Below are positions 154-61,193 of a DNA stretch of 61,193 nucleotides, one piece after another. The notes under the pieces are model-generated. The model had not been told where the DNA came from. It searched no databases and was given only the letters and a program-made list of their open reading frames with translations. Position numbers and translations under genes: made by a program. Source of the stretch: Candidatus Gastranaerophilales bacterium (GTDB taxonomy: Bacteria > Cyanobacteriota > Vampirovibrionia > Gastranaerophilales > Gastranaerophilaceae); assembly GCA_944325705.1 (NCBI GenBank), contig CALVBB010000011.1, positions 1-61,193 of the forward strand, in the 5' to 3' direction. Position 1 is the stretch's first letter. Each line of letters opens with the position of its first letter.

Positions 154-227
<74 letters not shown>

Positions 228-532
228 CTGTGGTCTTATTCAATTTTCCCGTGGTTTCAGTTGGATAGAGCTTATTATTTAAACTCCGTAAGTTCTTCGA
301 ACTTACTATGGCCAACTGAGCTACACACGCTTGCTACTATTTAATTTTCTTGTGGTTTCAGTTGGATAGAGCTTATTATTTAAACTCCGTAAGTTCTTCG
401 AACTTACTACGGCCAACTGAGCTACACACGCTTGCTACTATTTAATTTTCTTGTGGTTTCAGTTGGATAGAGCTTATTATTTAAACTCCGTAAGTTCTTC
501 GAACTTACTACGGCCAACTGAGCTACACACGC
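228..532 (-). repeat. Three tandem ~101-bp repeats carrying 5' tRNA-Arg fragments
   Basis: Units end at 330, 431 and 532 (spacing 103, 101 and 101 bp) and are nearly identical. Read on the minus strand, each starts with the first 19 nt of the adjacent tRNA-Arg (acceptor strand plus part of the D-arm). It then leaves the tRNA sequence with a 9-bp-class hairpin (GTAAGTTC / GAACTTAC), and next carries GCTCTATCCAACTGA, which is perfectly antisense to 15 nt of the same tRNA's D-arm. An AT-rich spacer completes the unit. The block sits between the ankyrin-gene terminator and the intact tRNA, so tRNA transcription must start in or cross it. Function is unknown. It could be the footprint of a small element that targets tRNA genes, or a transcribed tRNA-derived RNA. 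Confidence 0.85.
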
Positions 533-553
533 TCGTCCTTTTTATTTATTAAA

Positions 554-575
554 AAGTTGCGGTCTCCCGCAACTT
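554..575 (-). terminator. Rho-independent terminator of the ankyrin gene
   Basis: A 9-bp GC-containing stem (AAGTTGCGG / CCGCAACTT) with a 4-nt loop is followed on the minus strand by TTTAATAAA. It lies about 40 bp past the stop codon of the ankyrin-repeat gene and separates that gene from the tRNA repeat block. Confidence 0.75.
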
Positions 576-616
576 CTAGTTTAGCAAAAAAATATTTATT
601 TTCAAGGTTTTATTTT

Positions 617-60950: not shown

Positions 60951-61130
60951 AAAACCTTTGAAAATTGAATATTATATTTTTAATACTATGTCGTAGTGGC
61001 ACTGTGCCGCAGGAAAACAATTCTTAATTGTTTTCCGAGAGGGTTCACCTAGAGTGAACATCCGCCGCGAAGACAAGCTAAAAACCTTTGAAAATTGAAT
61101 ATTATTTTTTTAATACTATGTCGTAGTGGC
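60951..61130 (+). repeat. Direct repeat containing the tRNA-Leu promoter and 5' end
   Basis: 50 bp at 60951-61000 is repeated at 61081-61130 with one mismatch. Each copy has TTGAAA-17-TAATAC and the first 11 nt of tRNA-Leu (GTCGTAGTGGC). After 61000 the first copy departs into hairpins: GGCAC/GTGCC, an 11-bp GGAAAACAATT/AATTGTTTTCC and GTTCAC/GTGAAC. It then has CCGCCGCGAAGAC, which is imperfectly antisense to the tRNA-Leu 5' end (10 of 13 match). The arrangement parallels the tRNA-Arg repeats at 228-532. Confidence 0.85.
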
Positions 61131-61193
61131 GGAATGGTATACGCGCACGTTTGAGGGGCGTGTGGAGAGATCCGTGCGGGTTCAAGTCCCGCC
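61120..61193 (+). tRNA. tRNA-Leu (anticodon GAG), cut by the window end
   Basis: Acceptor strand GTCGTAG is followed by TGGCGGAATGGTATACGC (D-arm), an anticodon arm with stem CACGT/GCGTG and anticodon GAG in TTGAGGG. A long variable arm (TGGAGAGATCC) and the T-arm GGGTTCAAGTCCC come next. The sequence ends before the 3' acceptor strand. The long variable arm is typical of tRNA-Leu. A complete copy presumably continues beyond the window. Confidence 0.93.

Follow-up and report, generated by a model that had tools for sequence, protein, structure and literature searches.

The tRNA-Arg(ACG) gene near one end of the contig analysed here, a 61,193-nt stretch of DNA from a Candidatus Gastranaerophilales bacterium to which we refer as the window, is preceded by tandem units of about 100 bp, each of which carries a copy of the 5' end of the tRNA together with a segment antisense to its D-arm. 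We propose that such a unit is a cis-acting, structured element in the 5' leader of the tRNA gene, inherited vertically, kept by selection and bistable, a reading to which we assign a probability of about 0.5. For the leader architecture we draw on sequence, covariation and conservation. The copy of the first 11-19 nt of the tRNA would provide the 5' strand of a closing stem (P1/P2), the segment antisense to the 5' part of the tRNA would provide the 3' strand, and one or two further hairpins (P3, P4) would complete a three-way junction. The precursor would then be bistable, with two mutually exclusive folds. In the first, the unit would fold on itself and the tRNA would form its cloverleaf, such that RNase P could cut at tRNA +1; in the second, the antisense segment would sequester the real D-arm and the 5' copy in the unit would take the 3' acceptor strand of the tRNA, giving a tRNA-like, misfolded precursor. 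How much mature tRNA is made would depend on the balance of the two states, and the number of unit copies may tune it.

Proposed leader units at the two ends of the contig

Both ends of the window carry a tRNA gene with units upstream, on opposite strands. Their parts are as follows, the Arg locus being given in its direction of transcription.

578..605, minus strand: promoter-like TTGAAA-16-TAAACT upstream of the Arg array (consensus scan)
551..577, minus strand: terminator-like hairpin followed by Ts, AGAAGTTGCGGGAGACCGCAACTTTTT (seen by eye in the sequence; the terminator scan did not return it)
432..532, minus strand: unit 3, distal, 101 nt (tRNA copy 532-514; P3 508-490; antisense 473-459)
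331..431, minus strand: unit 2, 101 nt (tRNA copy 431-413; P3 407-389; antisense 372-358)
228..330, minus strand: unit 1, proximal, 103 nt (tRNA 5' copy 330-312; P3 hairpin 306-288; P4 about 287-267; antisense D-arm 271-257; AT-rich leader about 250-228), from sequence, TRF, self-fold and relatives
154..227, minus strand: tRNA-Arg(ACG) (ARAGORN; Rfam RF00005, 69.5 bits)
60951..61000, plus strand: first copy of leader plus tRNA-Leu nt 1-11 (repeat search)
60990..61119, plus strand: unit upstream of tRNA-Leu (tRNA copy 60990-61000; P3 61012-61036; P4 61043-61059; short antisense TCCGCC 61061-61066; second leader copy from 61081), from sequence, repeat search and self-fold
61120..61193, plus strand: tRNA-Leu, 3'-truncated by the contig end (Rfam RF00005, 34.7 bits)

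On the minus strand the Arg units thus run 532-432, 431-331 and 330-228, followed by tRNA-Arg(ACG), the sole Arg-ACG gene detected in the host genome; TRF returns them as a tandem array at positions 209-533 with a period of 101 bp, 3.2 copies and 95% matches. Every unit begins with tRNA nt 1-19 (GCGTGTGTAGCTCAGTTGG), continues with CC and three bases, an 8-bp hairpin with a GAA loop (GTAAGTTC GAA GAACTTAC) and an AT-rich stretch in which the arms GGAGTTTA/TAAGCTCT make a second hairpin, and ends with 15 nt (GCTCTATCCAACTGA) that are the exact reverse complement of tRNA nt 12-26, then ACCAC and an AT-rich leader. The first-pass annotation of this DNA had described three units of about 101 bp directly upstream of tRNA-Arg, each with the first 19 nt of the tRNA in sense, a strong hairpin and 15 nt perfectly antisense to the D-arm, a description that proves exact to the base for units of 101-103 bp. 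The antisense segment also pairs within its own unit, such that the unit self-folds into a three-way junction whose closing stem consists of the tRNA copy and the antisense (-29.9 kcal/mol; z = -4.4 against dinucleotide shuffles).

At the opposite contig end, a 50-nt direct repeat (60951-61000 and 61081-61130, 98% identical at a spacing of 130 bp) encloses two hairpins and a short antisense between its copies, and the Leu unit self-folds into the same three-way-junction shape as the Arg unit (z -2.9).

Promoter-like sites lie upstream of the arrays on the same strand, as judged by consensus only and in a scan that gave no excess over shuffles. The site upstream of the Arg array is identical or near-identical in four relatives, suggesting that this array is probably part of a transcribed leader. 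Between this site and the array sits the terminator-like hairpin at 551-577. A similar hairpin stands before the same tRNA-Arg in relatives that are free of units, as if the tRNA had an attenuator.

Distribution among tRNA genes, genomes and phyla

Segments antisense to the D-arm of the tRNA's own gene (score of 10 or more, at most 200 nt upstream of the tRNA) were found for 19 of the 84 tRNAs in three genomes, namely the host, one Saccharibacteria and one Peregrinibacteria, and reversed, complemented, anticodon-arm and T-arm controls in the same three genomes each gave 0/84. Counting sense copies as well, 12 of the 36 tRNAs in the host genome have units (Arg-ACG, Gly-UCC, Val-UAC, Val-GAC, Phe, Trp, Lys-CUU, Pro-UGG, Pro-CGG, Met, Ala-GGC and Leu-CAG), to which the Leu gene at the contig end is added. 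All 12 have TTGG in the D-loop region, compared with 4 of the 24 unit-free tRNAs (Fisher p 1.5e-6); the contig-end Leu is an exception to this rule. A motif near TTGAAAATTNAATA lies 10-25 nt upstream of nearly all unit-bearing tRNAs among the tRNA leaders of genome G000, often repeated ahead of each unit, and is mostly missing at unit-free tRNAs.

Of 286 genomes in the order Gastranaerophilales, 17 matched an exact pattern, with 48 units in all (reversed-pattern control, 0). Over about 85,000 species the same pattern matched 67 contigs, chiefly from Gastranaerophilales and Saccharibacteria, with further matches in Peregrinibacteria, Gracilibacteria, Nomurabacteria and Peribacteria, and single records labelled Deltaproteobacteria, Bradymonadales, Ancillula and Oscillospiraceae; these labels are given as deposited, and at least one such record (L098) belongs to the order Gastranaerophilales. 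Three matches are false, being a tRNA-Thr itself (L102), a large palindrome (L131) and a reverse-strand tRNA (L240). When we searched for the antisense segment only, in the class around the Saccharibacteria genome, 9 of 195 genomes matched, one of them falsely, and every true match also had a sense copy upstream, which indicates that the element comes as a package, widespread and patchy. Presence is patchy even inside the genus. Wherever enough of the contig is available, units immediately precede the tRNA gene that they match and share its orientation; many loci have one unit only and others have three to five near-identical tandem units.

Several variants are worth describing in their own right. 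Units of a second subtype, in which GGNNAGCCNTNAGC follows the tRNA copy, occur in several Patescibacteria lineages and at many tRNAs (among others, the Saccharibacteria and Peregrinibacteria units L067, L087, L103, L112 and L115), and two bases of this motif change jointly (C..G or G..C). As a class-S motif, GGNNAGCCNTNAGC was present in only 1 of 287 genomes, which rules it out as a common Patescibacteria element. One unit lies within an rRNA operon, between the 16S rRNA and tRNA-Ile (L132 7463-7635, label Bradymonadales). At a Saccharibacteria tRNA-Arg-UCU (L166, genome G289), about the first 37 nt of the tRNA are duplicated upstream with no obvious antisense, a plain duplication that may represent an early or different stage. 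Lastly, a five-unit array before tRNA-Thr(CGU) has alternating unit types (G007:C2:10527-10994), which suggests growth by unequal exchange of two-unit blocks.

Fold, inheritance and predicted pairing with the tRNA

The shape of P3 is kept while its sequence varies between tRNAs, with compensatory changes. We aligned 14 P3 types from Gastranaerophilales by hand on their structure. Seven of them have U-A and six have C-G as the outer pair, C-G, U-A and G-C make up the inner pair in 5, 6 and 3 types, and the pairs are standard in 13-14 of the 14 types, giving a conserved fold; a G.A-type internal loop (GA/GA or GNA/GNA) recurs, and the loops are mostly GNA. Saccharibacteria tRNA-Thr units have the same tandem G.A with the inner pairs swapped (GCC/GGC versus GGC/GCC). 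RNAalifold returned no consensus from a sequence alignment of all units, which are too diverged for MAFFT to align.

Conservation is concentrated in the unit core. Identity among five species reaches 97% for the Arg unit core, compared with 65% for its own AT leader, 77% for the leader before the units and 53% for the sequence after the tRNA, and fourfold-degenerate sites in a neighbouring regulator gene are 31-44% identical in four genomes (G000, G004, G006, G007), which is near saturation; the units therefore appear to be constrained. Outside the tRNA-derived part, identity is 0.87 for units of the same tRNA across species, 0.52 between tRNAs within one genome and 0.53 for different tRNAs in different species, like the within-genome value, so that units follow their tRNA by descent. 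The clear case of paralogous spread is that of the Phe and Thr-CGU units, which are 0.89-0.91 alike in one genus. Distal units decay in some arrays and the proximal unit is kept. The picture of neutral, decaying copies with no conserved hairpin thus fits some distal units and fails for the proximal ones, with their conserved core and P3 covariation; we reject neutral decay and regard the units, on these comparisons, as vertically inherited and seemingly constrained.

Folding models favour pairing between unit and tRNA. When proximal units were folded together with their tRNA (RNAfold, 66 units), on average 0.95 of the antisense bases were placed on the tRNA and the normal acceptor stem was lost. 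Unit nt 1-7 paired with the 3' acceptor strand of the tRNA in 69 of 76 combined folds, and folding the two together gained 10.5 kcal/mol on average over folding them apart. A few loci in this set, L102 among them, are false or extreme, and the energies leave out tRNA tertiary contacts and modification. The competing fold is the one predicted to be preferred in every proximal unit examined. This preference partly follows from an architecture of copy plus antisense, and the energies speak to the possibility of such pairing rather than to its use.

The D-loop gives a more telling hint that pairing between unit and tRNA may matter. Antisense bases opposite variable D-loop positions, one or two per unit, match the unit's own tRNA in 47 of 55 distinct units; with permuted tRNAs about 19 matches are expected, and none of 10000 permutations reached the observed value in any of the groups. 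These bases are only about half paired in the self-fold. In young units the match could also stem from descent from an original inverted duplication. Where units differ from their tRNA at nt 1-7, 15 of 43 differences keep the pairing with the 3' acceptor strand, against about 7 expected without transition bias, a signal that is not clear, and some units, those of Met, Leu and Ala-GGC, are complementary to the tRNA over a short stretch only or with a break midway. The earlier idea of a transcribed, tRNA-derived RNA able to pair with tRNA-Arg is supported at the level of sequence, given the position of the arrays between promoter-like sites and the tRNA, the D-loop matches and the predicted pairing.

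Taken with the models, the units probably modulate tRNA maturation through mutually exclusive folding. Several unit-bearing tRNAs are the sole ones of their kind, so the cloverleaf must form often and the unfavourable state cannot dominate in vivo. We infer that the unit acts to brake or tune tRNA production and not to switch it off.

Alternative explanations and known systems

An alternative that we consider unlikely is that the units are what is left of a tiny mobile or satellite element that inserted site-specifically at tRNA 5' ends, duplicated its target (nt 1-11 to 1-19 plus leader) and then grew in tandem. The 5' end of the tRNA, at times with the whole leader, is directly repeated (the 50-nt repeat at tRNA-Leu; also Thr), occurrence is patchy across phyla, the Phe and Thr units of one genus are about 90% alike, and units favour D-loops with TTGG. 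However, unit type goes with the tRNA and not with the genome, conservation at fixed loci is far above neutral, and the Phe/Thr class lacks copies away from tRNAs; two unit types searched over 13 genomes gave strong matches only upstream of tRNAs. Viral contigs yielded no match to the exact pattern, which gives no evident source in phage tRNA arrays or prophage att sites, and the five main carriers (G000, G004, G006, G007, G012) have no RVT_1 reverse transcriptase, which speaks against it as a mobility partner. The duplicated segment, 11-19 nt of the tRNA 5' end plus a variable leader, gives a mixed picture, being inconstant in length where one enzyme would leave a target-site duplication of constant length. 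The earlier suggestion of an element integrating at tRNA 5' ends retains the duplication that an insertion would give, whereas vertical inheritance and the lack of stray copies, viral matches and RVT_1 leave an active mobile element unsupported, and we disfavour it. Very unlikely, in our view, is a role at the level of DNA, with the palindromic unit as a site for protein binding or recombination that tunes the activity or copy number of the tRNA gene: P3 of the Arg units is an invariant 8-bp dyad with a GNA spacer, and near-perfect direct repeats favour recombination, but P3 varies in sequence between tRNAs while keeping its fold, and two-sided compensatory changes and G.A internal loops suit a folded single strand better than a duplex.

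The arrays could instead be a source of small trans-acting RNAs, serving as decoys or sponges for tRNA fragments or for a tRNA-binding protein, with the tRNA as a convenient location. Three to five near-identical tandem units, a stable self-fold and an antisense that fits one tRNA would agree with this, and such arrays would resemble the Escherichia coli tyrT repeats; we nonetheless think it improbable, since many loci have a single unit and a trans-acting RNA has no need of a constant placement directly upstream and in the same orientation. A functionless by-product of mutation, in which template switching at the D-arm inverted repeat produced a duplication-inversion-duplication that then slipped into tandem copies, has only a slim chance of being the complete account. 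The order sense-loop-antisense-sense is that of a double-template-switch product, distal units decay, and direct repeats of the tRNA copy permit expansion and loss. Against this, the core is conserved beside near-saturated synonymous sites, compensatory changes occur in P3, which is mostly not derived from the tRNA, and the confinement of matches to 67 contigs, concentrated in two groups, does not fit a general mutational process. As a complete account this is largely refuted, and as an origin it is plausible: we take a double template switch at the D-arm as the likely starting point of the leader element that we propose, its fold having come under selection later, and the direct repeats explain both tandem growth and precise loss. 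We also rejected an intron-like reading with the upstream copy as the true 5' exon, because that copy is damaged at several single-unit loci (Trp, and Lys of genome G002) with the downstream tRNA intact, and inspection by eye gave no consistent motif for archaeal C/D or H/ACA guides, CsrA sponges, boxA or self-cleaving ribozymes.

Known systems each share one aspect with the units and differ in others, and the features that define them and can be checked are absent here. The repeats of the E. coli tyrT operon (rtT RNA) are 178 bp long and each start with 19 nt of tRNA-Tyr; they resemble the units as tandem repeats carrying about 19 nt of an adjacent tRNA and are co-transcribed with it, as is predicted here. 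They lie downstream, derive from the tRNA 3' end, have no antisense and belong to one operon, whereas the units lie upstream, copy the tRNA 5' end, carry a D-arm antisense and a conserved fold, and occur at a third of one genome's tRNAs and in several phyla. T-box riboswitches are leader RNAs with tRNA-specific pairing and mutually exclusive helices, both of which are predicted for the units, but they precede amino-acid genes and read the anticodon and 3' end, whereas the unit leader precedes a tRNA gene and is complementary to the D-arm. The Rfam T-box model had no match at the loci examined, and no unit with enough contig to judge lay upstream of aminoacyl-tRNA synthetase or amino-acid genes, the apparent exceptions being the three false matches (L102, L131, L240). 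Rickettsia palindromic elements and other MITE-like repeats are likewise small palindromic units of about 100 bp, dispersed and sometimes located in RNA genes; they are not matched to a host gene, in contrast to the units, which match their own tRNA and were found nowhere else in the 13 genomes searched. Integrase attachment sites also duplicate part of a tRNA gene and leave the tRNA intact, but they usually involve the 3' half and flank kilobase elements, whereas the units involve the 5' 11-19 nt, are 90-130 bp long and show no integrase-sized insert. Rfam 15, at gathering and at permissive thresholds, placed no family on the units in the window and nine other loci, where only tRNA and 16S rRNA reached the cut-offs, and our literature searches, for which subscription journals were mostly outside coverage, found no description of such repeats. 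Given these two results and the differences from known systems, we rate the kind as new; leader RNAs that both copy and oppose their own tRNA are of no described kind that we found.

Gene number, promoters and processing are generally taken as the main determinants of tRNA supply in bacteria. Units of about 100 bp that are kept by selection, even though recombination between direct repeats could remove them precisely, need explaining even without regulation. More tentatively, Gastranaerophilales and Patescibacteria may share a new class of cis-regulatory RNA, represented by the units, in which a leader decoy of the tRNA 5' half plus antisense forms a strand-displacement switch between the real tRNA and a tRNA-like decoy, with copy number as an evolvable dial for the levels of individual tRNAs. 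If true, this would make the units a clean natural setting in which to study co-transcriptional folding and strand displacement. Judging from sequence, the units might perhaps control the amount of tRNA made, and in some gut-associated bacteria one tRNA gene in three, including several that are the only copy of their kind, would then stand behind a folding switch.
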